The notes under the pieces were generated by a model, which searched no databases, had not been told where the DNA came from, and worked only from the letters and a program-made list of their open reading frames with translations. Source: Candidatus Krumholzibacteriia bacterium (lineage in GTDB: Bacteria > Krumholzibacteriota > Krumholzibacteriia > JAJRXK01). Taken from it: a stretch of 57,756 nt of DNA. A program made the translations under genes and the position numbers. Positions 17,003-32,049 of the stretch are shown here, one piece after another. The stretch spans positions 1 to 57,756 of the forward strand of contig JAOZPE010000012.1 in NCBI GenBank assembly GCA_029932915.1, written 5' to 3'. Position 1 is the stretch's first letter. Each line of letters opens with the position of its first letter.

Positions 17003-19009
17003 TCACTGCCGACCGGACGAGGGGCTCTCGCCCTCGTCCCTCTTGCCCCCCACCTCCAGGGTCAACACCTGCTCCCCGTCGAGCACCCAGGAGGTGGCGG
17101 TCTCGGCCCGGGCGCAGACCTCCGCCTCGACGGAGGCCGCCGCCGCGCCACCGCGACCTCGGCCGACGATCCCCCGGACGCTGGGAGGAAGACGTCGCCA
17201 CTCGCTTCCCCGCACCACCGCCGCGGCCGAACGACCGTAGAGCACCGCGCTGAGGGTCTCGGCGGAGCGGCGCTGGGCGAAGGCCTCGCGGATCTGCCGC
17301 AGGCCGGGATAGGCCCAGCGGGCCTGGGCGCGCTCGAGTTCGGTGGCGAAGGCCCGCCCGCCGTCGCTCAGGTGCAGGATGTACGGACCATCGGGCAGAT
17401 CCTCGGGCAAGGGCAGCGACAACTCCACCCACCGGGGTGCGTCGCGAAAGGGAAGGATCTCCACTCCGACCTGCAGCGTATCGCCGGCGCGGGGGGCGGC
17501 CGGCCTCACCCGCACCCGCCCCAGTTGGGCGCTCTGGATCTCCCCGCGCAGATCGAGTTCGACCTTCACCGCCTCCACCCGCACCGCCTCGCCGGGGTTG
17601 AAGGCAAGCAGGTTCAACGGAAGCATGATCTCCTGGGCCAGGGGTCCACCGACCTGCAGTCCGGTCAACGCCACGCGCGTCCGCAGCGGCGGGCCGTCGG
17701 CCAGCGTCAATTCGATGTCCGCCCGCGCGGTGGCGACCGAGCCGAGATCCTGTCCGATCATCAGTGAGTTCTGCACGCACCAGTACACCAGCGGCGGACT
17801 CAAGACCGGATGGCGCGCCACCTCGAAGTGGAAACTGTGGGATGCGCCCTCGCCCTGGACTTGGACCTCGACGGGAAGGGTGTCCGCCCGGACCCCGAGC
17901 CGGCCCGCGATGCCGACGGGGCTGTCGACGAGCATGGCTCCCACCTCCTCCGTCGCGGTGGCGAACTTGAAGGAGACCTGACGGCTCGGCATCACACCGA
18001 TGATCTCGGCCCGGTACAGGGGAAGACTCACCGGCCCGGCGGCGAGAAGGGGATGGCCGAAGGCCAGCACGGTACCTTCCTCGTCCACCTCGGTCACCGT
18101 GCCGGTGGCTGCAAGCTGTGCATCGCCCCGGATGAGGACCACCGCCACCGCATCGCCCTCGCGCAGACCCGCGGCATCGAGCTCCTTCCCCTGGGAATCC
18201 CTTCCCCCGCGGTCCTTCCCACCGGATGCCTTCGCCGCAACCCCGGCGGGGTGAGCCGAGGACGGGCCGGCCATCCCGGGAACCAGGGGGGATCCGATCC
18301 GCTGCTGCAGCGCCTGCAGGACCTCCCCGTCCATCCCCGCCGCGCTGAACACCAGACCGCGGCCGAGTCCCTCGGGCCAGAGTCGGAGCCGGGAAGCCCC
18401 CACACCGGCAGGGAAGATCGCGTCGAGACCCTTCGACCCTTCGGTGGCGGTCCGGTCACCCATCCCCTCCACCGTCTCCGCCGGATCCCATCCCAGCGTC
18501 AGCGCCCAAGGCAGGGCGAGCGACTGCGGAGCCGGGGCCAGGGTGGCTCCCGGCGCCCAGGTGGGATGTCCACCATCGCGCAGATAACGGCCCAGACGCT
18601 TCATCTCGGCGATGGGACGGATCACCGCCACCGCCTCGACGGCGAAGGGCCAGGTGGCGGCCACCGCCCCCACCAGCTCGCCGTCCACCCACACCGGGCT
18701 GCCGCTCATTCCCTGCAGGACACCGGTCTCGTCCAGGGGGGATCCGGACAGACGGGCGAGGATGAGATCACCGGTGGAGCCGGCCTTCTCGAGCCGACCG
18801 AGGATCTCCACTTCGAAACGATCGAGATGGCTGCCGTGGTAGACGGTGAGACCCCAACCCCGGCTGCCCTGCGCCGGCACGGCCGGGGCCGTTGCGCCGT
18901 CCTTCCCGAACGCGGTCGACACCGTCGGCGCCGGCGGGAACAGTACGATGAGCAGGAGAACGCCGGCCGCCGTCCGAAGCCGCCACAGTCGATGGAAACG
19001 CCGCACCAC
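17003..19009 (-). CDS. Secreted SpoIVB (S55)-like serine peptidase family protein
   Basis: A 668-residue exported protein starting at GTG 19009, with a signal-type segment TAAGVLLLIVLFPPAPTV. Residues about 50-130 hold the S55 hallmark: LTVYHGSHLDRFEVEILG, a VLQGMSGSPVWVDGELVGAV stretch with the predicted nucleophile serine, and later EVDEEGTVLAFGHPLLAAGP, which carries the conserved GH. In Bacillus, SpoIVB is a signalling protease; similar large proteins in non-sporulating Gram-negatives are uncharacterised. The C-terminal half, with LPLNLLAFNPGEAVRVEAVK, looks like beta-sandwich repeats. The gene sits between a cyclophilin and the propeller protein, all exported, suggesting an envelope role. 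Whether it is catalytically active is not known. Confidence 0.85.
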   Translation of the reverse strand: MVRRFHRLWRLRTAAGVLLLIVLFPPAPTVSTAFGKDGATAPAVPAQGSRGWGLTVYHGSHLDRFEVEILGRLEKAGSTGDLILARLSGSPLDETGVLQGMSGSPVWVDGELVGAVAATWPFAVEAVAVIRPIAEMKRLGRYLRDGGHPTWAPGATLAPAPQSLALPWALTLGWDPAETVEGMGDRTATEGSKGLDAIFPAGVGASRLRLWPEGLGRGLVFSAAGMDGEVLQALQQRIGSPLVPGMAGPSSAHPAGVAAKASGGKDRGGRDSQGKELDAAGLREGDAVAVVLIRGDAQLAATGTVTEVDEEGTVLAFGHPLLAAGPVSLPLYRAEIIGVMPSRQVSFKFATATEEVGAMLVDSPVGIAGRLGVRADTLPVEVQVQGEGASHSFHFEVARHPVLSPPLVYWCVQNSLMIGQDLGSVATARADIELTLADGPPLRTRVALTGLQVGGPLAQEIMLPLNLLAFNPGEAVRVEAVKVELDLRGEIQSAQLGRVRVRPAAPRAGDTLQVGVEILPFRDAPRWVELSLPLPEDLPDGPYILHLSDGGRAFATELERAQARWAYPGLRQIREAFAQRRSAETLSAVLYGRSAAAVVRGSEWRRLPPSVRGIVGRGRGGAAAASVEAEVCARAETATSWVLDGEQVLTLEVGGKRDEGESPSSGRQ

Positions 19010-19128: not shown

Positions 19129-19749
19129 CTACTGGCCGTCCGCGCTGGAGAGGATATCCACCTTGGTGATCACGACATCCTCGACCGGCTTGTCCTTGGG
19201 GCCGACCTCCACCGCCTCCACCTGGCCGACGACATCCATTCCGTCGATGACCTCGCCGAAGATGGTGTGGCGTCCGTCGAGCCAGGGCGTGGGCGCGAAG
19301 GTGATGAAGAACTGGCTTCCGTTCGTTCCCGGTCCGGCGTTGGCCATGGCCAACAGCCCCGGGCGGTCGAAGTGCAGACTGTCGACGATCTCGTCCTCGA
19401 AGGGCTCGCCCCACAGGCTCTTCCCTCCGTATCCGGTGCCGGTGGGATCGCCGCCCTGCATCATGAAGCCCTTGATGACCCGGTGGAAGATGACCCCGTC
19501 GTAGTATCCCTTGCGGGCCAGGCCCAGGAAGTTCTCGACGGTCTTGGGGGTGAGTTCGTCGTACAGGCGAAGGGTGATCGAACCGAGATTGGTCTCGATC
19601 ACGACCCGGGTGCCGGATGAGTCGGACACGGTGGGCTCCTCTGGATGGGTGATCGTGGAGTCCTGTGCGAAGGCCGCCACTGACGCGGTCATCGCCAACA
19701 CGAGCAGGAGAACCGGAAGGATCCGGCTCCGGACTCTCGACGCAAGCAT
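19129..19749 (-). CDS. Exported cyclophilin-type peptidyl-prolyl isomerase
   Basis: A 206-residue protein with an N-terminal signal ([20 protein letters not shown], cleaved near FAQ) and a cyclophilin domain: [40 protein letters not shown] with the catalytic FHRVI arginine, [38 protein letters not shown] and [18 protein letters not shown]. It would catalyse proline isomerisation during protein folding in the periplasm. ATG at 19749 places the signal peptide at the start; the longer open frame runs into tRNA-Arg. It is followed by the S55 gene after about 120 bases. Confidence 0.95.
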
Positions 19750-19819
19750 GATGGTGGCATCCTCCGGTGGATGGGGTGCGGGAAGGGCCGGACAGTCTCC
19801 ATCCGGCCCTTCCCCTCGA

Positions 19820-19896
19820 TGGTGCGCCCAGGAGGACTCGAACCCCCAACCTTCTGGTCCGTAGCCAAACGCTCTATCCAGTTGAGCTATGGGCGC
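19820..19896 (-). tRNA. tRNA-Arg (ACG)
   Basis: Minus-strand cloverleaf: acceptor GCGCCCA / TGGGCGC, D arm with CTCAACTGGATAGAG, anticodon loop CTACGGA (anticodon ACG, the substrate of TadA), T loop TTCGAGT, encoded CCA. 77 nt. Confidence 0.96.
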
Positions 19897-19923
19897 ATTT
19901 CTTCTGGGGCCATGGCCCCGTTC

Positions 19924-20011
<88 letters not shown>

Positions 20012-20073
20012 CGATCCTCTGCTTCCATCTGCCTTCGTCGGGGTTCACCCGGACACCCCGCTCCCACGGGAGT

Positions 20074-20160
20074 TGGCGGAGGGCGGGGGACTCGAACCCC
20101 CAAGGGCGCAAGCCCGGCGGTTTTCAAGACCGCTGCCTTACCAGTTAGGTCTAGCCCTCC
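20074..20160 (-). tRNA. tRNA-Ser (TGA)
   Basis: Minus-strand class II tRNA: acceptor GGAGGGC / GCCCTCC, anticodon loop CTTGAAA (anticodon TGA), variable arm GGGC-TTGC-GCCC, T loop TTCGAGT, discriminator G and encoded CCA. 87 nt. Confidence 0.96.
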
Positions 20161-20331
20161 CGGATGCGCAAGGGCCCTTCCCAGGAAAACTCCCCAGCGC
20201 CGTAACTCGTTATCGTGTGCATGCTTGCAACACACGTACAGGGATCCGGCAGCGAGGAGCCAATCTAGCACCGCCCCCCGGGGGTGTCAAGACGGCCCAC
20301 TCGCAGCTTTCGTCCGCCACCGCGGTGGCGA

Positions 20332-22833
20332 TCAACCTCCACCCTTCTTGCCCAGACCCTTCAGCAGTCCCCGCAGCTTGTCGGTCACCGACCGGGTGGC
20401 CTCCCCCTGGGCCCGGCTGCGGGCGCTGTCCAGCTCCAGGGAGATCGAGGGCTTGCTTCCGTCGCCTTCGACGTGGACGGGGATGGTGATGCGCCCGTCC
20501 TCGGTGCGCAGGAATTCCACCAGGGGGGTGAGCGAACCCAGGTCGAGTTTCTCCTGGGCCGGCAGCTTCACCTCCAGGTGATAGTCCACCCGGCCGTCGA
20601 GGCCCACCCAGCCGTTGGCCTGCAGACGGGTCGGCCCCTTCAGGACCGTCTCGTCGAAGTGCACGCGACCCTGATCGAGTTGCAGATGGGTCAGGAATTC
20701 GTGGAATGGGATCTCGTTCAACTTCGCCGCCGCTCCGGCCGGCAGGGAAGCCAGGCCCTTCCCCAGCAACTGGGCGGTGATCAGCTTGCCCGCGCCCCCC
20801 TTCAGGGTCGCCTCTCCGCTGAGGGCCGAGAGGATCTGCCGTCCATCCTCGCCCATGGCACCCGCCAGCTCCAGCCGGCCGGCGAGCACGGTGCTCAGGG
20901 CCGAAGCCAATCGCGGCGCCAGGGGAGCCAGGATCTCCTGCGAGGGCAAGGCCTCCACCCGGGTCTGCAGGGTCCATCGCGGTTGCGGGGCCTTCCAGTC
21001 GATCCGTGCCTGTCCGCTCAGGTGCCCGTCGCCGAGCCGGGCCGTGAGATCGTCGAGCTCCATCACCTGGTCCTGCAGATCCAGCTCGCCCCGGAGATCC
21101 TCGAAGGCATAGCCCCGGGTCAGCAGGCGGTCGCAGCGCAGCCGCAGCCGGGCCGAGAGATCCTCCGGCGGAGCGGGCATCGTCGTCTCCGCCCCGGCGG
21201 CCCGGGCCTCCGGAACCTTCCACCACCGCGGCGAGAGGGAGGCGTGGGATTCCTCCGTCGGCCGACTCATCAGCCGATCGAGGTCGATGCGGGTGAAGGC
21301 AGCCTCCCCCACGAAGTTCCGCCCGGAGGAGTCGCTCAGCAGACGGCCCCCGATCCGTCCCTCCATGGCCGGGCCCGACAACTGCAGATCCTCGATCTCG
21401 AGTTCCTTGCCCTCCAGCCGAAGCCGGCCGGCGGTGAGGATCAGGCTGTCCGGCAGCGAGGGCATCCGAAGCGCCACGCGGTGGATGGTCCACGTCGAAC
21501 GCACTGCGTCGGCGGGCATCGGGGACGGCGGTGGCCAGGGCATGGAGATCTCGATCCTTCCATCCACCCTTCCCGCCGCCTCGGGCCATCGTTCCGGGGG
21601 CGAGGCCTTCGTTCGCAGACTCTCGGGAAGCTCGGGCCAGATCGAACGCAGCAGTTCCTCGGCCGCCTGCGCATCCACCACCGCGTCGAAACGCCCGCTG
21701 GCACTGCCCTCCCCCATCACCGGCATCTCGATGCTCCCGCGCATCGAGCAGCCGGGCACCGACAGATCACCGGTGTGCAGGGTCAGGGTGTTCCCCTGCT
21801 GCACGAAGTCCAGGTTTCCGCGCAGTAGATCGTCGCGCCCGTAGGCGCCGACGCGAAGATCCTCGACCGCACCGCGCACGGAGACGAGGGCCAGCCACTG
21901 CCGCGGCGTCGCGCCCGGCGGGGGCAGGAATCCCTCGCCACGCACCGTGCCTCCGGCACTGTGGTAGTCCCACTGCAGGTCCGAGGGAAGGGAGCTCGCG
22001 TCCAGCGCCGCGAAGTTCCGGCGCAGGGCCTCGACCCCGGCCGTCCACTGCAACTCGCCGTGCAGGTGCACGCGGCCGCCGGTGTCCTCCAGTTCGACCG
22101 GACCCTCCCACTGCACGCCCCCGATGCTGCCCTCGGTGAAGCGGAGGTGGAGCTGCAGGGGCTGCAGGCGGCCGGTGGCTTCCATCCGCAGAGCGAGATC
22201 GGAGAGTTCCAGCGGGGGAAGATCCTGACGGTAGTGGGCCAGGCCGCCCTCCAGCCGTGCCGTGAAGGTGCCGTCGGGCAGCAGACGGGCGTGCGCGCGC
22301 TGGTCGAGGCCTTCGAGCCGGAAAGTGCGTCCTCCCTCGGCATGCACGGTGATCCGCCCGTCCTCGATCGACAGCAGGGCCAGGGCCATGGCGCCGGGCG
22401 CGATGGAGTTTGCGGTGGAATCCCCAACCGCTCCGGGCCCGGGCGTCCCGCCCTTCTTCGCCGGCGATGCGTCCATCCACAGCTCCAGCCGTGGGCTCTC
22501 GAGACGGATCTCCTGCACCTGGGGCCTCTTCCTCAGCAGCGACCACAGATCGGCGGTGGCGGTGAGTTCCTCGATCTCCCCCTCCACCCTGGGCATCCCG
22601 GGACGACTGGTGTCTCCCCCCGAGATGGTCAGGCCCTTCAGGCGCAGTCCCACCGGCCAGGGGAAGCGGATGCTCGCTTCCTCGGCGGTGGCCCGCAGGC
22701 CGGTGCGCGCCTCCAGTTGGGCGAAGAGGAAATCCTTCACCGCGTCCGCGGGAACCAGGCTTCGCACCGCGACCACCGCGAGCAGGAGCACCACCGCGAT
22801 CACCACGACGATTCGAACTGCCTTCTTCTTCAT
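20332..22833 (-). CDS. AsmA-family envelope protein
   Basis: An 833-residue protein anchored by one N-terminal membrane helix (AVRIVVVIAVVLLLAVVAV, residues 5-24) with a long periplasmic part. The N-terminal AsmA signature is visible: LVPADAVKDFLFAQLEARTG followed by RFPWPVGLRLKGLTI, then many beta-rich repeats. The AsmA C-terminal domain (about residues 650-810) includes LSGEATLKGGAGKLITAQLL, FHEFLTHLQLDQGRVHFDE and WVGLDGRVDYHLEVKLP. Family members form bridge-like grooves moving phospholipids between membranes. Its ATG overlaps the mnmA stop by 4 bases (22830-22833). It closes the envelope operon, ahead of the tRNA cluster. Confidence 0.9.
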   Translation of the reverse strand: MKKKAVRIVVVIAVVLLLAVVAVRSLVPADAVKDFLFAQLEARTGLRATAEEASIRFPWPVGLRLKGLTISGGDTSRPGMPRVEGEIEELTATADLWSLLRKRPQVQEIRLESPRLELWMDASPAKKGGTPGPGAVGDSTANSIAPGAMALALLSIEDGRITVHAEGGRTFRLEGLDQRAHARLLPDGTFTARLEGGLAHYRQDLPPLELSDLALRMEATGRLQPLQLHLRFTEGSIGGVQWEGPVELEDTGGRVHLHGELQWTAGVEALRRNFAALDASSLPSDLQWDYHSAGGTVRGEGFLPPPGATPRQWLALVSVRGAVEDLRVGAYGRDDLLRGNLDFVQQGNTLTLHTGDLSVPGCSMRGSIEMPVMGEGSASGRFDAVVDAQAAEELLRSIWPELPESLRTKASPPERWPEAAGRVDGRIEISMPWPPPSPMPADAVRSTWTIHRVALRMPSLPDSLILTAGRLRLEGKELEIEDLQLSGPAMEGRIGGRLLSDSSGRNFVGEAAFTRIDLDRLMSRPTEESHASLSPRWWKVPEARAAGAETTMPAPPEDLSARLRLRCDRLLTRGYAFEDLRGELDLQDQVMELDDLTARLGDGHLSGQARIDWKAPQPRWTLQTRVEALPSQEILAPLAPRLASALSTVLAGRLELAGAMGEDGRQILSALSGEATLKGGAGKLITAQLLGKGLASLPAGAAAKLNEIPFHEFLTHLQLDQGRVHFDETVLKGPTRLQANGWVGLDGRVDYHLEVKLPAQEKLDLGSLTPLVEFLRTEDGRITIPVHVEGDGSKPSISLELDSARSRAQGEATRSVTDKLRGLLKGLGKKGGG

Positions 22834-23933
22834 TCTGTCTCCTCGAGACGGCCGCCTCCGACGACGACCCCCTCCCGGTACAGGACCACCGATTGTCCCG
22901 GAGCCGGTGCACGGTCCGGTTCGGCCAACTCCACCGACAACTTCGCTCCATCCCGCTGGAGGCGCCGTACCGGCCGCCCCGTATGGCGGGAACGGGTGCG
23001 CGCCACCAGACCGGGGCCACCGTCGAGGGGATCGCGCAACCAGGCATCGTCACAGTGCAGACGATGACGGAGAAGCTCGGCTTCCCCCCCCACCTGCACC
23101 CGGTTCGAGCGGGGATCGAGGGCGGTCACGAACCACGGACCGCCGCGGTCCACCCCCAGGCCCCTTCTCTGCCCCACCGTATAGAAGGGCAGACCGCGGT
23201 GGTGTCCGATCACCCGTCCCGTCGACTCGACGATCTCGCCGGGGCCCCGTCCCCGGCCGGTCAGGGGGATGCGGTCGCCTCCGGGCACGAAACAGATCTC
23301 CTGGCTGTCGGGAGTCTCCGCTGCGGGCAGACCCCGCCGGCGCGCCTCCTCCCGCACCCGCTCCTTCGTCCACCCACCGAGGGGGAAGGTGCAACGCTGC
23401 AGGAGCGCCGGCGTAAGCGCATGCAGGTAATAGGATTGATCCTTGGACCCATCGGCGGCGCGGGCCAGGTGCAGACCACCGCGTTCGTGCCGCACCAGAC
23501 GCACGTAGTGGCCGCTCGCCACGAAGGCGGCCCCCATCCGCTCGGCATGCTCCAGGAACGAGGGAAAGCGGACCCGGCGGTTGCAACGCACACAGGGATT
23601 GGGGGTACGGCCCCGCCGGTACTCCTGCACGAAGTCGTCGATCACTTCCGAAGCGAAGAGCGGGACGACATCGAGCACCTGGTGGGCGATGCCCAGATCG
23701 GCGGCCAACGCGCGCGCCGCGTCGATCGCGGCCTCCGAGCAACAGGCGCCCTCGTCGAGCCGATCGCCGCCGGGGAGTTCGGCCGGCCGGAAGTTGCGCG
23801 TCGTCACCCCGAGGAGTTCGCAACCCCGTTCCTTCAGCCGGAGGGCGGCGACCGCGCTGTCCACCCCTCCGGAGAGACCGATCACCACGCGGGTACCGGC
23901 TCCGGGAAGTTCCACTTCAGACCACGCGGACAT
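22830..23933 (-). CDS. mnmA: tRNA-specific 2-thiouridylase MnmA
   Basis: A 367-residue enzyme that thiolates U34 of tRNA-Glu, -Gln and -Lys; a tRNA-Glu(TTC) target is encoded at 45820. Motifs: PP-loop VVIGLSGGVDSAVAALRL, GACCSEAAIDAARALA, the catalytic cysteine in RGRTPNPCVRCNRRVRF, SGHYVRL, DQSYYLHAL and the second cysteine in ETPDSQEICFVPGG, then the C-terminal barrel with FYTVGQRRGLGV. ATG at 23933 gives the best match to family length; a GTG at 23969 overlaps the TPR gene stop. A tRNA-modification gene within an envelope operon is probably incidental cotranscription. Confidence 0.95.
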   Translation of the reverse strand: MSAWSEVELPGAGTRVVIGLSGGVDSAVAALRLKERGCELLGVTTRNFRPAELPGGDRLDEGACCSEAAIDAARALAADLGIAHQVLDVVPLFASEVIDDFVQEYRRGRTPNPCVRCNRRVRFPSFLEHAERMGAAFVASGHYVRLVRHERGGLHLARAADGSKDQSYYLHALTPALLQRCTFPLGGWTKERVREEARRRGLPAAETPDSQEICFVPGGDRIPLTGRGRGPGEIVESTGRVIGHHRGLPFYTVGQRRGLGVDRGGPWFVTALDPRSNRVQVGGEAELLRHRLHCDDAWLRDPLDGGPGLVARTRSRHTGRPVRRLQRDGAKLSVELAEPDRAPAPGQSVVLYREGVVVGGGRLEETE

Positions 23934-23965
23934 CGTCTCGGCGGCGCCGGGACCGTGGCGGGGAA

Positions 23966-24667
23966 TCACCGGCCCGAGGCGTCCTTCTCCTTCGGATCGG
24001 GAAGCTGGGGAGCCTCGGTCTTCATCAGATCCTCGATGATCTTGATGTTGGCCGCACTGCGCTCACCCAGATCGCTGTGGGGATCGACCTCGACGACCTT
24101 CTCCCATTCGCGGCGCGCCTCGCGATAGACCTGCGCGTCGGCGAAGAGGATCGCCATGTTGTAGTGCGCCAGTTGGGAATCGGGATGGTGCTCGATGGCG
24201 GTCTGGAAGGCGTCCAGGGCCCGACCGATCTCGCGCTTCTTGAAGTAGACCCCTCCGAGATTGCAAAGGGCCTTCTCGTCGGTGGGCGCCAGCTTCAGGG
24301 CCTGCGAGTAGCTCTTCAGGGCCTGGTCGAGCTGCCCCAGGTCGTCCTGGGCGTTGCCCAGGTTCACCCATCCTCCCAGGAAATCGGGATCGAGCTTCGT
24401 CGTCGCCTCGAACTCGTCGGCCGCCGCCTGCGACTTGTTCTCGTCCAGATACAGATTCCCCAATGCGAAGTGCAGGGCCGCATCGTCGGGTGACTTCTTC
24501 AACTCCTCCTGCAGCAGCTCGATCCGGGTCGCATTGTCCGGAAGGGAGTCGAGCTTCTGCTGCAGATCCTCGGGCAGCCGGGAGGTGTCCGCCAGCAACG
24601 GCGTCGCAACGAGCATCACGGTGATGATCAGGATCACGGACGAGACAAGCGCTCCAACAGACTTCAT
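23966..24667 (-). CDS. Exported TPR-repeat protein
   Basis: A 233-residue protein with an N-terminal signal segment (VSSVILIITVMLVATPLLA) and about five TPR units: PDDAALHFALGNLYLDENKS, FLGGWVNLGNAQDDLGQLDQ, EKALCNLGGVYFKKREIGRA, SQLAHYNMAILFADAQVYRE, and a degenerate last one. The helical repeats should bind a protein partner in the periplasm. It is in the operon downstream of the outer-membrane barrel and just before mnmA, so it may help that barrel or the Exb/TonB-like complex. The precise partner is unknown. Confidence 0.88.
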   Translation of the reverse strand: MKSVGALVSSVILIITVMLVATPLLADTSRLPEDLQQKLDSLPDNATRIELLQEELKKSPDDAALHFALGNLYLDENKSQAAADEFEATTKLDPDFLGGWVNLGNAQDDLGQLDQALKSYSQALKLAPTDEKALCNLGGVYFKKREIGRALDAFQTAIEHHPDSQLAHYNMAILFADAQVYREARREWEKVVEVDPHSDLGERSAANIKIIEDLMKTEAPQLPDPKEKDASGR

Positions 24668-24713
24668 CGCATTCCTCCCTCGGCCTTCGTCGAGACCGAA
24701 GCCAACAGCTTCA

Positions 24714-25925
24714 TCAATACCACTTCTCGCCGCCGGTGATCGACACCACCAACCGCAAGAACGAATCCTGCACGCCGTTGCGCGCGAGTGAACCCGTCCG
24801 TCCGTACTGGATCGCCAGATCGGCCCGGCTGTACGGCCCGAGCAACTGGATACCGGTCCCCACGCTGACCCCCCACTCGGTGATCACCTCACCCTGCAGG
24901 GAATAGTTCCAGCTCCGGTACCAGGCTCCCACACGATAGGGCGCCTTCCTGCGTTTACCGCGCCCTCGTTCCTCGAGTTCCAGTCCGGCGTGCAGGGACC
25001 ACTCGTCCTGCATCGTGCCGGTGAAGGCCTCACGCCCCTCGTAGGTGCTCCAGCCCTCCCAACGGTAATCGGTGCCGAAGCTCCAACGCCCCGGAAGGTC
25101 CAGTCTCAGACCGGCGCCCAGACGGGCGGGGAAGGTGTCCTCCCGCTCGGCGTCGCTGCGAGAATCCTTCGACACACCCCGCACGGTGATGGCTACATCG
25201 GCGCGATGCTCGGGAACATAGTAACCGGCCACGCTGAACGGACCCAGGTCCTGCAAGCCCAGCGCGAACTTCACCGCACGCCCCTTGAAGACCTCCTCCC
25301 GCACGTCGCCCGGGTTCGCCACCGCATCCTGCAGGGCGGCCGAATACCGCTGGCGAAGTGTACCACGAACCACCAGGAAACCGGCCCCCACCCTCAAGTG
25401 GGGAAACAGCTCCACCCCCAGCTCGAAGGGGAAGTCGAAGAGCGTGCCCTCGCGTTCGAGGGTCTCCTGCACCGGATCGGCCGGATCGGGACTGGCCGCC
25501 GCGTCCCGTTGGATCTCCCACTGCATCGACCGGCGCGCGGCGAATCCCAGGCCCAGGGTCATCCTCGACCCGATGGGGAAGCCCACGCGCAGGGTGGGAT
25601 TGACGATGGCGAATCTCTTGACCTGTCCGAGGGAGTCCTCCGACGACACGCTCCCCCACGAACTGATCAGGGTGAAGGTGACGCGCCGCAGATCGACGAG
25701 CTGGGTCGGCGTGCCGGCATTGGCGTTGAGCGAATCGGTGTAGCCGAGCATCGCTCCTCCACGCCCTTCCGCCCGCGCATCGGTCATCGCGGTCGCACTT
25801 CCGAAGTAGGACTGGCCGAAGATCGATTCGGCGCGGGACGGCACGGCCCACTGCAGCAGGATCGCCGCTGCGAACAGGCAGACCATCGACAGGCCGGAAC
25901 CCTTGCGGAGGAGATTCATCATCAC
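24714..25925 (-). CDS. Outer-membrane beta-barrel protein (PorV/OmpP1-like)
   Basis: A 403-residue protein with a signal peptide (MVCLFAAAILLQWAVPSRAE) and alternating hydrophobic/polar strands throughout, many ending in aromatic residues, with a final strand LRLVVSITGGEKWY. The early part, GSATAMTDARAEGRGGAMLG followed by NANAGTPTQL, recalls the start of FadL/OmpP1/PorV-like barrels in FCB bacteria, where a small N-terminal hatch precedes the barrel. Its start overlaps the stop of the lipoprotein gene by 4 bases. It is encoded with ExbB/ExbD/TonB-like genes, so it may be the outer-membrane part of that system. Substrate unknown. Confidence 0.8.
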   Translation of the reverse strand: MMMNLLRKGSGLSMVCLFAAAILLQWAVPSRAESIFGQSYFGSATAMTDARAEGRGGAMLGYTDSLNANAGTPTQLVDLRRVTFTLISSWGSVSSEDSLGQVKRFAIVNPTLRVGFPIGSRMTLGLGFAARRSMQWEIQRDAAASPDPADPVQETLEREGTLFDFPFELGVELFPHLRVGAGFLVVRGTLRQRYSAALQDAVANPGDVREEVFKGRAVKFALGLQDLGPFSVAGYYVPEHRADVAITVRGVSKDSRSDAEREDTFPARLGAGLRLDLPGRWSFGTDYRWEGWSTYEGREAFTGTMQDEWSLHAGLELEERGRGKRRKAPYRVGAWYRSWNYSLQGEVITEWGVSVGTGIQLLGPYSRADLAIQYGRTGSLARNGVQDSFLRLVVSITGGEKWY

Positions 25926-27394
25926 GGCGTGAAATCGGCTGGAGGCGTATAGCGGATCTCGATGCGGGGTCTCAGACTGTCCGCGGCCGAGGAGGTGAAG
26001 AAACCGGATTCGATGAATTGCAATTCCTCCTGGGTGAAACGCGCCAGAAGGCCCGGCGGCTCATCACCGAAGATGCCGTTGACCACCCGCTGGGCGAAGT
26101 CGGCGATGTTGATGCTGAGAACGTCGTCTCCCTCCTGCGTACCGCTCACCACGACATCGGGACGGAAGATGGTCAAGGCATCGGAGACCTGCGGCAGACC
26201 GGTGGTGTCCATCGCCAAGGCCTCATCGCGCGTGGCCTCGTACACCACGACGGTCACTTCGATGGGCGAGAGCGTGCTGCCCTGGAAGGTGCGGTCACCG
26301 GTGGAACGATCGATGAGATCATCGTCGGTCTCGCCCGGCTCCAGAGGAACCTCGACCCCCGGGAAACCGGTGACGGCGAAACGCGAACGATCGAAGTGCA
26401 GCAACAACGAAGCCGAGTTGATGGTGGCCGCCCGCGGGATGCTCGACAGATCGAAGTCGAACCAGCAGCGGCGGATGATGTGCCCGCCCAGGGACAGTTC
26501 GGTGGGCGTGGGAGGAACATTCCTCTCGAAGACGGTCAGGTCGCTCTCCGAAGAGAAGGTCACCCCCAGCTCGTCCAGGCCCAGCCGGTAGTTGACGGTC
26601 AGTTTGGGGAAGATGAACACCTGCCCGATCGAGACGTTCTGCGCGGCCAGCAGATGCTCGTGCGCCCCCTCGTCGAAATCCGCCGAGGCCAGGGCCAGCA
26701 ACGAGCTGTCGGCGCCGGTCTCCACCAGGGCGATCCCGTTGTGCTGGCCGGCGAGCATCCAGTCGACCACCCTTTGCTTGATCGTGTAGGCCTCGGCCTC
26801 GTCCTTGCCCTCGAGCAGATCGAAGTCGAGGGTCTGCCCGCGGAAGCCCTCGTAGTCGCCGATCCAGTCGCCCAGATGATCGGAAGCCGGTCCCTGTGCC
26901 ATCGACGGATCCAGGGGCGCATTCAGCTCATAGATGGAGACCCGGACCTTGTCGGCGGCTTGCTTGGCGTCCTCGCGTCCCATGCGGAAGGAGATGGGGA
27001 TGCTGCGGATGATCCCCGGATCGGCCGCCAGCGAATCGATCGCCACCGTGTCCCCGAAGGCGAGCGAGTAGCGCAGGAACGGCGTCGCCTTCCAGTCGGT
27101 CGCCTCGATGGCACCCAGGTAGAGGAACTCGCGCTGATCGAAGGATTCGCCCTGGGGAGGATCGATCAGGGGCATGTCCATCGCCATCTCGTCGCGCGTT
27201 CCCACGATCTGGAGGGGAACGGCCAGACTGTCCTGGCTGACGTCACTGGGAAGGCTCGAACCGGTGGGGCCGAAGGCATCGCTGCTGCAGCCGGCGACAC
27301 CCGCCACGGCCAGCGAGACCACGAGCCACGCCATCACCCGGAACGCCGCGGCGTTGGTACGGGCTCGACCGGGGCGACGCAACGCTCCACTCAT
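25922..27394 (-). CDS. Lipoprotein of unknown function in Exb-type operon
   Basis: A 490-residue lipoprotein. A signal segment MAWLVVSLAVAGVAGC places the lipobox VAGC with the modified cysteine at residue 36. The mature protein is beta-rich; around residues 300-370 RRCWFDFDLSSIPRAATINS followed by LLLHFDRSR resembles the DNRLRE-type carbohydrate-binding sandwich, and the end SLRPRIEIRYTPPAD fits that fold. No catalytic motif seen. The start overlaps the exbD stop (27391-27394) and its stop overlaps the barrel start (25922-25925), so translation of exbD, lipoprotein and barrel is coupled. A surface partner of the barrel is the simplest guess. Confidence 0.78.
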   Translation of the reverse strand: MSGALRRPGRARTNAAAFRVMAWLVVSLAVAGVAGCSSDAFGPTGSSLPSDVSQDSLAVPLQIVGTRDEMAMDMPLIDPPQGESFDQREFLYLGAIEATDWKATPFLRYSLAFGDTVAIDSLAADPGIIRSIPISFRMGREDAKQAADKVRVSIYELNAPLDPSMAQGPASDHLGDWIGDYEGFRGQTLDFDLLEGKDEAEAYTIKQRVVDWMLAGQHNGIALVETGADSSLLALASADFDEGAHEHLLAAQNVSIGQVFIFPKLTVNYRLGLDELGVTFSSESDLTVFERNVPPTPTELSLGGHIIRRCWFDFDLSSIPRAATINSASLLLHFDRSRFAVTGFPGVEVPLEPGETDDDLIDRSTGDRTFQGSTLSPIEVTVVVYEATRDEALAMDTTGLPQVSDALTIFRPDVVVSGTQEGDDVLSINIADFAQRVVNGIFGDEPPGLLARFTQEELQFIESGFFTSSAADSLRPRIEIRYTPPADFTP

Positions 27395-27834
27395 GGGGTC
27401 GGGTCCTTGAAGGTCTTGATGTGGGTACCGAAGGCCACCCCGGAGAAGCCGGCCTCGCGCACGAAGTCGAGCAGCCGCACCACATCTCCGTGGCGCGCTC
27501 CGGCCTCGGCGTCGAGCAGCACGGTGGACTCCTCGTCGGCCTCGTGCAGACGGCGCAGACGATCGAGCACCTCGCCGGAGGCCACCTTCTCCTGGTTGAG
27601 GAGGATCTCCCCGTTCTCGAGCAGGACCAGTTCGATCTGGTGGCTCTGGACACCGGCCTGGGCCGGCGCGGCCGTCGACGACTCGGGCAACTGGAGCTTC
27701 ATCTCCCCGGCGCGCTTGAAGGTTCCGGTGATCATGAAGAAGATCAGCAACAGGAAGAGGACGTCGATCAACGAGGTGATGTTCAGAACGACCTTCGACC
27801 GTCCCCTGCGCTCGCGGAAGATCATCTCGCTCAC
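27391..27834 (-). CDS. exbD: ExbD/TolR-family protein
   Basis: A 147-residue inner-membrane protein that works with ExbB to use the proton gradient. The N-terminal cytoplasmic part FRERRGRSKVVLNITSLIDV leads into the single membrane helix VLFLLLIFFMITGTF, with the conserved aspartate in SLIDV. The periplasmic domain has IELVLLENGEILLNQEKV and ESTVLLDAEAGARHGDVVRL. I chose GTG at 27834 because GGAGGA lies 7 bases upstream and it overlaps the exbB stop (GTGA); an ATG three codons later is possible. ExbD and TolR cannot be told apart from sequence alone. Confidence 0.92.
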   Translation of the reverse strand: MSEMIFRERRGRSKVVLNITSLIDVLFLLLIFFMITGTFKRAGEMKLQLPESSTAAPAQAGVQSHQIELVLLENGEILLNQEKVASGEVLDRLRRLHEADEESTVLLDAEAGARHGDVVRLLDFVREAGFSGVAFGTHIKTFKDPTP

Positions 27835-28493
27835 GAGAGTTCCTCCCGATGGAAGGCGATCTTCACGTCTTCGTCCACCGGATCGGTCGAACCCTGGCGA
27901 CGGAGCCGGTTCACCAGTCGGGAGGCATAGGCCTCGATCTCGATGATCAGACCGTTCGCGCGCGCCGCCACGAGATTGTAGGCGATGAGCGTGGGGATCC
28001 CGATGGCCAGACCCACCGCGGTGGTGATCATCGCCTCGCTGATGCCCTCGCTGAGGGCCTGAGGATCGCCCAGACCGGCCACGCTGATCGCGGCGAAGAC
28101 CTTGATCATCCCCAACACCGTTCCCAGGAGCCCGAGCAGGGGAGCCACCTGGGCGATGGTCTCCAACCACACGAGATTGCGCTCGAGGGACGGGGTCTCC
28201 TGGCGCCCGGCGTCGATCACCGCGTCGCGCATCTCCTGCCACGGTTCACTGGCCCGTTGCAGACCCACGCGCATGATGTGGCTGAAGACGCCGGGATTGC
28301 GCCGGCAGATCTCGATGGCCACCGAGAGGTCCTTGCCCGGCCGCACCGACTCGACGACCTCGACGATCTCCTTGGGCAATACCCGTGAACGCCGCAGGGC
28401 CAGGACCCGTTCGATGGTGATGGTGCCCGCCAGGAGACTGCACAGAGCCAGAGGGATCATCACCGGGCCGGCATGGACGAGGGTCTCGAACAT
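27831..28493 (-). CDS. exbB: ExbB/TolQ-family proton channel protein
   Basis: A 220-residue MotA/TolQ/ExbB-domain protein. The first helix is in PVMIPLALCSLLAGTITIER; the cytoplasmic loop follows; two more helices are WLETIAQVAPLLGLLGTVLG and ISEAMITTAVGLAIGIPTLI, with the conserved GLLGTVLGMI and TAVGL stretches lining the channel. The start MFETLVHAGPV at 28493 has GGAAG upstream. It is followed with overlap by exbD and preceded, after 101 bases, by the TonB-like gene, giving a complete energy-transducing set. Confidence 0.94.
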   Translation of the reverse strand: MFETLVHAGPVMIPLALCSLLAGTITIERVLALRRSRVLPKEIVEVVESVRPGKDLSVAIEICRRNPGVFSHIMRVGLQRASEPWQEMRDAVIDAGRQETPSLERNLVWLETIAQVAPLLGLLGTVLGMIKVFAAISVAGLGDPQALSEGISEAMITTAVGLAIGIPTLIAYNLVAARANGLIIEIEAYASRLVNRLRRQGSTDPVDEDVKIAFHREELS

Positions 28494-28594
28494 TCTTCCG
28501 CTCTCTCCCTGGGAATTCCTCATGCAGATCGGCCCCCACCATAGGGGCAAGCCCGGCGGCTGGCAAGACGACGTCATGCGCCCGCAGAGGGTCT

Positions 28595-29668
28595 TCACCG
28601 CCGCCGCAGAGGAGGATAGATGAGCTTGATCCTCAGGATCAGGGTCGCTTCGGGAAAGTCCTTGGGCAAGGGACGGAACGGTGCGGTGGCCTTGAACGAG
28701 GCGATGCTCTGTTGGCTCAGCGACTCGTGCCCCTGCTGGTCCAGCAGATCCAGCCGCAACAGGCGGCCGTCCTTGGCGATCTCCAGTTCCACCAGGGTCC
28801 AGCCGTTGATCAGACCCAGGTAGTACGCGTAGGGCGCCACCCAGTTCCTCACGAAATCACGGCGGAAGCGCTGGAGCCACGGAGCGTAGGCCCATTCCAG
28901 GGTGTTGAGGCTGACATCGCCGAAGAGGGCCGCGTTGCCGCCGGGATTGTGCATCTCCTCCTGGAAGATGTCCTGCATCCCGTGCTGGGGCCTCACGAGC
29001 TGGGGAACGGCGAGCCCCTGGTTGCGCACGAGCTCGTCCTGGGGCGAGGTGTTCGCCTCACGGCGCGGGAAGTCCCCCCCATCCTCGGCGCCGGCCTGAA
29101 GGCGGGTCTCCGTATCCGTTCCCGGCTGGAGATCGTCGGTCGGCCGAAGGGGATCCTCCCCTCCCTGTGCGGAGGCATGGGATGTTCGGCTGTCCTCGGC
29201 CTGGGGATCGCCCCGGGCCGCCGGTTCGGAGGCCGCCATCGCCTCTCCCGCGTCGGCCTCCCGCATGGCCACGTGCGGCGCCTCCGACTCACCCTGCAGG
29301 CGGGGCATCGAGTTCTCGTTCCCTCCCTCCACGCGGTCGCGGGCACGGCTGTCCACATTGCTCAGCAGATCGGCTTTCTCCGGTGCGACGTCCACCCGGT
29401 CCGGAGGCAGTTCACTGAAGTTCTTCGGCAGGGAGGATTCGGAGTCATCGGAGGCCGGCGGCTGCGGTTTCGCGAAGACCATCCGGATGGGCTCGGGCTC
29501 CTGGGCCCGGACCGGATTCGCCTGGAAGGGCCGGGTCCACACGAGCAGGGTGATGACCACCGCGTGCAGCAGGAGGGTGAGAAGGAAGGCCACCAGCCAG
29601 ACCCGTCCGCTCTGCTGCCGTCCCGTGACGGCGGCCTCGGAATCGACCGGCTCCGGTATCGTTGACAA
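28595..29668 (-). CDS. TonB-like periplasm-spanning energy transducer
   Basis: A 357-residue protein starting at TTG 29668. One membrane helix (VWLVAFLLTLLLHAVVITLL, residues 23-42) is followed by a long acidic, proline-containing, low-complexity linker (about 55-240) and a C-terminal domain resembling TonB_C: NGWTLVELEIAKDGRLLRLD, SQQSIASFKATAPFRPLPKD and LILRIKLIYPPLRRR. A TolA assignment is possible. Being the first gene before exbB-exbD-lipoprotein-barrel suggests a dedicated system. The start is weak but the helix begins right after it. Divergent from murB. Confidence 0.82.
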   Translation of the reverse strand: MSTIPEPVDSEAAVTGRQQSGRVWLVAFLLTLLLHAVVITLLVWTRPFQANPVRAQEPEPIRMVFAKPQPPASDDSESSLPKNFSELPPDRVDVAPEKADLLSNVDSRARDRVEGGNENSMPRLQGESEAPHVAMREADAGEAMAASEPAARGDPQAEDSRTSHASAQGGEDPLRPTDDLQPGTDTETRLQAGAEDGGDFPRREANTSPQDELVRNQGLAVPQLVRPQHGMQDIFQEEMHNPGGNAALFGDVSLNTLEWAYAPWLQRFRRDFVRNWVAPYAYYLGLINGWTLVELEIAKDGRLLRLDLLDQQGHESLSQQSIASFKATAPFRPLPKDFPEATLILRIKLIYPPLRRR

Positions 29669-29824
29669 GCTCTTCCCCCCTACCTAAGCTGCGACGAGCG
29701 AGCATCACCTCGGGTTACCGTTGTGGCGTCGATCCTCGATCCCGGGTCGAAACGGCGTCCTCACGGGCTTGGCCCACCCCCCTCACAGTGACGCCGGGCG
29801 GCCCCACCCGCAAGCGTTCCCTTC

Positions 29825-30775
29825 ATGGCCAGCACCTCTCATCCCTACACCGAACTCGACCGGAGATTCCCCGGTCTCCTACAAGAAAACATCCCCCTGT
29901 CCCGATACACCACCTTCGGCATCGGCGGCCCGGCCGATCGCTTCGCCGAGGTGGGGGACCCGATCCGGTTGGCCGAGCTGTTGGCCGCGGCGCGGGAGAG
30001 CGCGGTCCCGGTCTTCCTGCTGGGCGAGGGCAGCAACCTCCTGATCGACGACGCCGGCCTGCGGGCCCTGGTCATCCGCAACCGCATGGACCGGATCCAT
30101 TACGAAGGCCAGCAGGTGCGGGTCGAGAGCGGAGCGGGTTTCCATCCGCTCATCCTGGACACCGTGGACCATGGGCTCGCCGGTCTCGAATTCGCCGCCG
30201 GCATCCCGGGAACGGTGGGTGGAGCGGTATGGGGAAACGCGGGGTGCTATGGACGCGCCATCGGCGACTTCCTCCTCCGCGCGCGCTGGATCGAGCCGGA
30301 TGGGCGGATCCGCGAGCCCGAACGCGGCGACTTCGATTTCGCCTACCGGGACAGCGTGCTGAAGCGCAACGGTTGCGTCCTGCTGGAGACCGTGCTCGAA
30401 CTCTCGCCGGGCAATCGGCAGGAGAGCCGGCGGATCATCGAGGAGAAGCTGGCCCTGCGCCGGCAGAAGCATCCCCAGGAGCAAGCCTGCGCGGGAAGCT
30501 ACTTCAAGAACATCGACCCCGAGGAGCCCGGTCAGCAGCGCATCCCGGCGGGCCGTCTGCTGGACGAGGTCGGAGCAAAGGGTCTGAGGGTCGGCGACGC
30601 GGCGGTCTTCGCGAAACACGCGAACATCATCGTCAATCTCGGGGCGGCCACCGCCCGCGAGGTCCTCGAGTTGGCGGCGGAGATGAAGCGGCGGGTGCGC
30701 GAGGAATTCGGGATCGAGTTGCACGAGGAGGTCCGCTACGTACCGGCCGAGCTGCCCCCGTCGAGGGGGGGCTGA
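29825..30775 (+). CDS. murB: UDP-N-acetylenolpyruvoylglucosamine reductase
   Basis: A 316-residue FAD enzyme of cytoplasmic peptidoglycan precursor synthesis, reducing UDP-GlcNAc-enolpyruvate with NADPH to UDP-MurNAc. Motifs: RYTTFGIGGPADRFAEV, VFLLGEGSNLLIDD, LEFAAGIPGTVGGAVWGNAG, FDFAYRDSVLKRNG, then the type II-like C-terminus with QACAGSYFKNIDP (the catalytic serine in GSYFKN) and the terminal glutamate in GIELHEEVRYVP. It stands away from other mur genes, divergent from the TonB-like gene. Confidence 0.97.
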   Translation: MASTSHPYTELDRRFPGLLQENIPLSRYTTFGIGGPADRFAEVGDPIRLAELLAAARESAVPVFLLGEGSNLLIDDAGLRALVIRNRMDRIHYEGQQVRVESGAGFHPLILDTVDHGLAGLEFAAGIPGTVGGAVWGNAGCYGRAIGDFLLRARWIEPDGRIREPERGDFDFAYRDSVLKRNGCVLLETVLELSPGNRQESRRIIEEKLALRRQKHPQEQACAGSYFKNIDPEEPGQQRIPAGRLLDEVGAKGLRVGDAAVFAKHANIIVNLGAATAREVLELAAEMKRRVREEFGIELHEEVRYVPAELPPSRGG

Positions 30776-31167
30776 CGAAGCCCCGCAGGCAGGGGCGCGC
30801 ACGGGAAGAGCCCCCTCCGCTCGGCAGAGCCCCTGGCCGGGACCGCCGGATCGGCGCCCGATGGGGCCCGCCTGCCCCCACACCGGCCGGTCCACGGGAC
30901 GGGAGAGGCCCGGGTGGCGAGGGGATGCATCCGGGCCGGAGCCGGCGAGGGAGGGGCAATGGAGCCTTGTGCAATCGCTTGCATTGACAATCCTTGAGGC
31001 GTTGGGGTACTTATGTAGGCCGCTGGAGACGGGGCGCGCCCCCTCCACGTCGGCGGTTCTGGCATGCATCCCCATCCTGTGGGCCAGTTCCCCCATCTTC
31101 CGGCACATGGGCTGCCGGGCAACTAGGGTCTTGGAGATTCGCTCTTTAGCTGAGGAGAGCCTTGCCG
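30776..31167 (+). promoter_or_regulatory. Intergenic region with a likely promoter for the barrel gene
   Basis: About 390 bases without a gene. The first 200 bases are very GC-rich with small inverted repeats and may hold the murB terminator. At 30984-30989 TTGACA is followed after 18 bases by TACTTAT (31008-31014), a good housekeeping-type promoter about 150 bases upstream of the barrel gene. A long leader (about 31020-31167) and a ribosome site, GAGGAG near 31153, follow. I see no known riboswitch. Confidence 0.5.
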
Positions 31168-32049
31168 ATGCGCCGAACCGCCTTCGCCAAGGGATGGCTG
31201 CTGCTCCCGTTCCTGCTGCTGGTCCTGCCGGGTTCCGTCCGGGCCCAGGGTATCGATGAACTCGAGGATCTGGAGAGCCTCGACGAGGAAGTGGTCACCG
31301 AGAAGGTCTTCCAGGCCGGAATCGACGTCGACAAGTGGGAGCTCACGGTCCAGATCGGTTTCATGCAGGTGCCCAAGCCGATCTTCCGGGCCGAGCAGAT
31401 CCTCGTGAAGTGGAACAGCAAGGGAAAGCTCTTCGCCGACATGCAGATCGACGGGAACTCGTCCTTCAGTCCGCAGGTGCGCATCGGACGGAACTGGGGA
31501 CACCTGGGATGGCAGGCCACCCTGGGCATGACCATGGGCGACTTCCGGCAGAACATCGATGCGGCGAGTGTCGTCGAACACTCCTTCTCGGGCAAGCCGG
31601 GCGAGGTCGTCCTCGAGGAGAACGACCCGGAGATCGGCTCGCTGGTCACCTGGTACCACGAGCAGGCACTGGTCTACAACATCCTGGTCCGAGGCCACCT
31701 CATTCCCTACGTCCTGGGCGGCATCGGAGCCCAGTACTGGGTCATCGACAGCGCCTACCTCAAGAGTTCCGATCCGGCGCTCACCTTCAGCTTCGGTGGC
31801 GGGTTGCGGGTCGTGGCCGACGATCTCTTCTCGGTCGTCTTCGAGGTGCGGGACTACATGTCGAAGGTCCAGCACAACAGCAGTTCGACCTTCCTGACCG
31901 ACCAGGTCGATCCCGACGACGACACACGGCTCATCGACATCCCGTTGACCCAGCTCGACAGCGAGGACACCGAGATCCCCTTCGGCGGCTTCGCCGAGGA
32001 GAGCTACCACGCCATCTGGTTCTCCATCGGTCTGATCGCCAGCTTCTGA
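31168..32049 (+). CDS. Putative outer-membrane beta-barrel protein
   Basis: A 293-residue exported protein. The signal is AFAKGWLLLPFLLLVLPGSV, cleaved after RAQ. An acidic stretch IDELEDLESLDEEVVTEKVF follows, then alternating strands: ELTVQIGFMQVPKPIF, PQVRIGRNWGHLGWQATLG, YVLGGIGAQYWVIDS, FSFGGGLRVVADDLFSVVFE, ending HAIWFSIGLIASF with a terminal phenylalanine typical of barrel assembly signals. ATG at 31168 was preferred over TTG at 31162. It has its own promoter and stands alone. Function unknown; a small OmpA/OmpW-sized barrel is the best description. Confidence 0.78.
   Translation: MRRTAFAKGWLLLPFLLLVLPGSVRAQGIDELEDLESLDEEVVTEKVFQAGIDVDKWELTVQIGFMQVPKPIFRAEQILVKWNSKGKLFADMQIDGNSSFSPQVRIGRNWGHLGWQATLGMTMGDFRQNIDAASVVEHSFSGKPGEVVLEENDPEIGSLVTWYHEQALVYNILVRGHLIPYVLGGIGAQYWVIDSAYLKSSDPALTFSFGGGLRVVADDLFSVVFEVRDYMSKVQHNSSSTFLTDQVDPDDDTRLIDIPLTQLDSEDTEIPFGGFAEESYHAIWFSIGLIASF

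Follow-up and report, generated by a model that had tools for sequence, protein, structure and literature searches.

In two 2025 papers (PMC12611786, PMC12578637) on the β-barrel assembly machinery (BAM) of Bacteroidota, BamG and BamH are described as essential outer subunits of the complex. The two forms closest to the locus considered here are BamADGHMP of F. johnsoniae (PMC12611786; PDB 9n2d) and BamADGHIJK of B. thetaiotaomicron and P. gingivalis (PMC12578637; PDB 9hiv, 9his, 9hjm); BamG and BamH had already been reported outside Bacteroidota, in six of seven other phyla of the Fibrobacteres–Chlorobi–Bacteroidetes (FCB) group (PMC12611786). The DNA analysed was a window of 57,756 nucleotides, positions 1 to 57,756 of contig JAOZPE010000012.1 (assembly GCA_029932915.1, Candidatus Krumholzibacteriia bacterium), and the element under study is a block of eight genes for a TonB-like protein, ExbB, ExbD, a lipoprotein, an outer membrane barrel, a tetratricopeptide repeat (TPR) protein, MnmA and an AsmA-family protein. 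Our preferred reading, held with somewhat less than even confidence, is that the operon encodes the outer subunits of a BAM of FCB type together with a dedicated proton-driven motor serving outer membrane assembly.

With the F. johnsoniae complex the locus shares BamG, recognised by profile, and BamH, recognised by fold, and BamA and BamD are encoded in the source genome. It differs in that the genes for BamH and BamG overlap, whereas the F. johnsoniae locus numbers Fjoh_0823 and Fjoh_1412 (PMC12611786) lie far apart, and in its TonB–ExbB–ExbD set, no counterpart of which is reported with that complex. The comparison with the B. thetaiotaomicron and P. gingivalis complexes is similar: BamG is shared by profile (9hiv_F, 9hjm_F) and BamH by fold (9his_G, 9hjm_G; PMC12578637), whereas motor genes stand in the Krumholzibacteriota operon and SusD was undetected in the phylum.

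Barrel: A profile built from 18 relatives of the barrel was compared with PDB sequences and matched the BamG chains 9hiv_F (2.7e-41), 9n2d_B (2.9e-34) and 9hjm_F (2.1e-26); the best barrel other than BamG was TbuX (5.7e-06). FadL, TodX and PorV belong to the same barrel class, but against the profile the chains of FadL and TodX fall short of the BamG chains by many orders of magnitude, and the Pfam FadL model gave 19.7 bits on the operon barrel, under its cut-off. The BamG matches take in an N-terminal stretch beyond FadL, starting at profile position 10–11 (9hiv_F, 9n2d_B) or 32 (9hjm_F), whereas those to TodX and CymD begin only at 45–49; in the solved complexes, as described in PMC12611786 and PMC12578637, BamG fills the lateral opening of its barrel with its own N-terminal tail. 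The NCBIfam BamG model NF053685 matched residues 42–403 (E 7.1e-36, 124.1 bits) below its equivalog cut-off of 250 bits, which was reached in none of 58 relative genomes although 57 of them held a match; the protein is therefore called a BamG homologue and not, by that model, a BamG equivalog. The profiles argue strongly for this assignment.

Lipoprotein: No Pfam family was found (best E 0.06 across 20 members) and profiles A2 and A6 gave no match to PDB sequences at E values up to 10, so that it was the fold alone that yielded an identification. A structure model was built from 23 sequences (mean predicted local distance difference test score, pLDDT, 66; predicted template modelling score 0.59). 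By using Foldseek, chain 9n2d_C of the F. johnsoniae BAM complex was ranked first of 350,542 chains (E 8.8e-08), and VIA-align gave Z 13.9 for this chain (341 residues), Z 13.4 for 9hjm_G from P. gingivalis (340) and Z 11.2 for 9his_G from B. thetaiotaomicron (345), the last from an entry titled BamHIJK. Root-mean-square deviations were 6.4–7.0, so the angles between domains may differ. Judging by entry, size and a domain resembling a chondroitin-sulfate-binding module, 9n2d_C and 9hjm_G are probably BamH; for F. johnsoniae BamH, PMC12611786 describes a fold of this type at one end. The chondroitin-sulfate-binding module itself matched the model (Z 11.2). BMP prodomains matched one domain of the model (Z 12.0), so a single-domain match is unspecific, and it is the matched length of ∼340 residues that sets the BAM chains apart. 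Cys36, in the lipobox VAGC, is invariant in alignments of 20 and of 23 lipoproteins. The predicted fold strongly suggests a BamH homologue.

Conserved core: BamH and BamG are neighbours in all 48 loci scored (both genes, one strand). Their junction is a 4-base stop/start overlap in 30 loci, a 1-base overlap in 4 and another spacing in 10; the other 4 were set aside by a distance filter because the frame opens far upstream. In 51 of 57 loci, BamG is followed by the TPR gene; among the six lacking it, G015 has BamH–BamG minus TPR, and paralogous or truncated loci account for the other five. For G019, G022, G030, G047 and G055, the locus fetched first proved to be a paralogue or to lie on a cut contig. 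BamH–BamG–TPR is thus a phylum-wide core. Behind it, MnmA follows the TPR gene closely in families f1, f2, f5 and f8 of the phylum, and lies ∼2–3.8 kb off in most sufficiently long f3 and f7 loci. Equation of the TPR protein with BamD was rejected, as the only match of the BamD model above its cut-off is at G000:C50:41790-42467, elsewhere in the source genome; BamA, with POTRA and Omp85 domains, is likewise encoded elsewhere, and the same genome therefore holds both BamA and BamD, as an FCB-type BAM calls for. The TPR protein is a new candidate BAM subunit.

Motor set: In the structure model of the TonB-like protein, one transmembrane helix is followed by a disordered linker and then by a C-terminal domain whose pLDDT exceeds 90. 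The fold of this domain matches H. pylori TonB (6sly, Z 10.4) and E. coli TolA (1tol, Z 9.9) equally well, and the Pfam TonB_C model gave 19.7 bits, under its cut-off of 24.6. Within the linker, residues ∼102–122 form a conserved motif in which A109, D111 and P122 are invariant and S107 nearly so (alignment A4); it may be a binding site for some partner. The Asp motif of the ExbD transmembrane segment is present, a narrow pattern for it being found in 20 of 26 printed frames, the operon ExbD included. The three-part build and the TonB/TolA-type domain fold are common to TonB–ExbB–ExbD and TolA–TolQ–TolR motors; the operon set differs from both in being tied to BamH–BamG and not to receptors, TolB or Pal. 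Three MotA/ExbB genes are present in the genome. A complete TolQ-TolR-TolA-TolB-Pal-CpoB locus (L104; Pal and CpoB named by eye from translations) lies elsewhere, as does an ordinary ExbB-ExbD-ExbD-TonB locus (L105), whose TonB scores 66.8 bits with PF03544 and whose neighbours are a PorV-like barrel and a TolC-like gene, the latter named by eye. The operon set is therefore a separate third one, and a Tol–Pal identity for it was rejected; TolB and Pal are both in L104 and neither is in the operon. Locus L105 (G000:C70, 3899-13515) reads as one row: a large protein with Asp-rich repeats, the PorV-like barrel, ExbB-ExbD-ExbD-TonB and the TolC-like gene. In G004, G008 and G013, too, a barrel matching the BamG hidden Markov model occurs with ExbB-ExbD-ExbD.

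Linkage in the phylum: Relatives of the TonB-like protein were collected in one contig scan, which gave 26 loci; 13 come from records bearing the name Krumholzibacteriota or Krumholzibacteriia. Alignments A1 to A4 hold 18, 20, 16 and 17 of the fetched loci, and A6 and A7 hold 22 and 17 of the 26 loci, partial or ambiguous starts being dropped. Among 80 Krumholzibacteriota genomes, the operon type of TonB was found in 64, BamH in 73 and both in 63, so that 63 of the 64 genomes with this TonB also carry BamH. The two genes lie within 3 kb of each other in 45 of the 63 (f1, 4/4; f2, 2/2; f5, 36/37; f6, 3/4). The TonB–BamH pair of f2 and the TonB-ExbB-ExbD-BamH row of f6 persist without the five families that flank the block elsewhere, none of which was found in the f2 and f6 stretches (20 kb for G008, G012 and G022; less for G004 and G019). 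In a tree built from BamG and MnmA without rows of >60% gaps, f1, f2 and f5 fall on one side of the midpoint root and f6 on the other. The link between motor and BamH is thus either ancestral to the phylum, with loss in f3, f4 and f7, or arose twice; both origins favour a joint role, without proving contact.

Several observations weigh against a motor that serves BAM. TonB is unlinked to BamH in f3 (0/12) and f4 (0/4), where most TonB-ExbB-ExbD sets stand alone; ten genomes, including those of f7 and f8, have BamH without the operon type of TonB, so BamGH does not need that TonB; and in f2 just TonB precedes BamH, ExbBD not being adjacent. The genes flanking the block in f1 and f5 (MurB, an OmpW-like protein, YifB and an S55-type peptidase) are conserved as well, some flank genes being common to both members in 114 of 114 pairs of different genera, so that for these two families gene order says little about a joint function, and its use as functional proof was given up after this flank test. 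According to a 2026 review (PMC13067283), the general view of BAM is that it operates without energy, and the four Plug-domain receptors of the source genome leave room for a role with TonB-dependent receptors. An earlier note on this DNA, made from the letters alone, had named scattering of the genes in relatives as grounds for refutation, and the outcome is mixed: BamH and BamG stay together, while the motor set is away from BamH in 18 of the 63 genomes with both. The same note's coupled envelope operon stands in so far as barrel, lipoprotein and TPR protein stay together in relatives, and its TonB-type set proved distinct from the Tol–Pal and ordinary TonB loci. The import or export machine that it proposed gives way to outer membrane protein assembly as the most likely function, the barrel and lipoprotein being BamG and BamH homologues.

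If the envelope genes are simply co-expressed, the third TonB/TolA–ExbBD set could be an independent second Tol-like tether or constriction motor that makes no contact with BAM. TolQ, TolR and TolA models give ExbB, ExbD and the TonB-like protein higher scores than ExbB and ExbD models do, the C-terminal domain cannot be told from that of TolA by fold, and the triad stands by itself in f3 and f4; the operon lacks TolB and Pal, however, a complete Tol–Pal set being present elsewhere, and in f2 it is TonB by itself that has stayed beside BamH. We regard such a motor as rather unlikely, while taking it seriously. A spare TonB system for TonB-dependent receptors, tied to BamH–BamG by history, would suit the Plug-domain receptors found in 58 of 58 genomes of the class, four of them in the source genome, but an ordinary TonB with its own ExbB-ExbD-ExbD is available at L105, the operon TonB falls under the TonB_C cut-off and the block contains no receptor, which makes this explanation improbable.

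Slightly less improbable, and still doubtful, is a motor for the type 9 secretion channel SprA. SprA_N was found in 67 of the 80 genomes, and GldL, the motor membrane protein of this system in Bacteroidota, exceeded its cut-off in 0 of 80, though this short protein may have diverged beyond the reach of the model; the block contains no type 9 secretion gene, and families f7 and f8 have SprA without the operon TonB, a weakness shared by the BAM reading. Traffic of lipids or glycolipids, which the earlier note had thought possible, would run through AsmA and use the barrel as a lipid pore; it has found little support and is very improbable: AsmA exceeds its Pfam cut-off, but it adjoins the block in f1 and f5 only, where the flanks are conserved too, and the lateral opening of BamG is filled by its own tail in the solved complexes, as their descriptions have it, a matching N-terminal stretch being present here. 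The lipid-bridge reading was set aside on the restricted linkage of AsmA.

As to what BamGH may be kept for, the 2025 papers (PMC12611786, PMC12578637) suggest assembly of SusCD, of large surface-exposed proteins such as SprA, or of surface lipoproteins. By one model (PF07980), SusD was found in 0 of the 80 genomes, against 67 for SprA_N and 73 for BamH. The expectation that BamG and BamH travel with SusD was thus not borne out, and SusCD is unlikely to be the main or sole reason for keeping BamGH here.

For the preferred reading, an operon for the outer part of BAM with its own motor, the following mechanism is proposed. BamG and BamH homologues would take the place they have in Bacteroidota, behind BamA and as a roof above the folding site. 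ExbB–ExbD would harness the proton motive force. Spanning the periplasm by its long linker, the TonB-like protein may pull BamG, BamA, the TPR protein or a stalled client, which would help large surface-exposed proteins to fold or to be released, with the TPR protein as a periplasmic adaptor. Loss of BamH in Bacteroidota blocks BamA, probably via stalled clients (PMC12611786), and these might be cleared by pulling from the side of the inner membrane. We infer the coupling of motor and BAM. In its full form, with a BAM driven by the proton motive force through a TonB–ExbB–ExbD set that pulls BamG, BamA or a stalled client, with energised outer membrane protein assembly in Krumholzibacteriota and perhaps other FCB phyla, and with BAM gaining a new periplasmic subunit in the TPR protein, the proposal is speculative, and we would put it well below an even chance.

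Operon layout: All eight frames run in one direction, and the four 4-base overlaps listed in the earlier note were found again: GTGA at 27834-27831 (exbB/exbD), ATGA at 27394-27391 (exbD/lipoprotein), GTGA at 25925-25922 (lipoprotein/barrel, an ATG start at 25922 being a possible alternative) and ATGA at 22833-22830 (mnmA/asmA). The TPR and mnmA genes overlap by GTGA too, provided the first start is used, and 46 bases separate barrel and TPR genes. The exbB frame opens at 28598, and aligned relatives begin at ATG 28493; with the latter start, ∼100 bases separate exbB from the TonB-like gene, and a single promoter-like site (28566-28538) falls within this gap. No terminator-like site was found in 20100-29900. 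The gene order recurs across the phylum and is thus more than chance. ExbB, ExbD, AsmA and MnmA exceed their model cut-offs, and mnmA is a housekeeping gene carried in the operon.

Table 1. Genes of the block (first eight rows) and neighbouring features, with positions in the window.
Feature	Position	Strand	Basis and remarks
TonB/TolA-like energy transducer	28595..29668	-	Fold, alignments; transmembrane helix aa 20-45, disordered linker, C-terminal domain aa ~245-357
ExbB/TolQ-type proton channel subunit	27831..28598	-	PF01618 106.8 bits, alignment; likely start 28493
ExbD/TolR-type subunit	27391..27837	-	PF02472 96.3 bits; GTG start 27834; transmembrane motif SLIDVLFLLLIFFM
BamH homologue (predicted), lipoprotein	25922..27394	-	Cys36 after lipobox; two-domain beta-rich fold; matches 9n2d_C, 9hjm_G, 9his_G
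BamG homologue, FadL-type barrel with BamG N-terminal stretch	24714..25925	-	NCBIfam BamG model, PDB BamG chains
TPR protein, signal peptide, without lipobox Cys	23966..24667	-	TPR models; constant third partner of BamH-BamG
mnmA, tRNA 2-thiouridine(34) synthase	22830..23969	-	PRK00143 341.6 bits (cut-off 284)
AsmA-family protein	20332..22833	-	PF05170 62.9 bits; linked only in families f1, f5
TTGACA-17-TAGATT site	20290-20262		
tRNA-Arg and two tRNA-Ser genes	19820-20160	-	Directly downstream of AsmA
Secreted cyclophilin-type peptidyl-prolyl isomerase	19129-19968	-	PF00160
SpoIVB peptidase S55 (weak match)	17003-19009	-	PF05580
OmpW-like small protein	31162-32049	+	No Pfam family

Neighbouring genes: The TTGACA-17-TAGATT site accompanies the tRNA genes, and the cyclophilin-type isomerase gene lies just past these; its family is also near BamG, TPR and MnmA in several f3 loci and one f7 locus, and isomerase-fold subunits occur in Bacteroidota BAM as well. 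The OmpW-like protein is conserved beside the block in f1 and f5, and the S55 match near it in several f1 and f5 loci.

In the literature searched (subscription papers and preprints being outside its scope), no report was found that joins BamG/BamH with a TonB–ExbBD set or a TPR partner, or that describes BamGH in a phylum without detectable SusD, although BamGH outside Bacteroidota is known already. With BamG and BamH tied to their own motor in one operon, an arrangement kept in distant families, there is a concrete system for testing an energised BAM. If the preferred reading is true, outer membrane protein assembly would be energised in these bacteria, contrary to the usual view of BAM as working without an energy supply, and the finding bears on what BamGH is for, beyond the assembly of SusCD.

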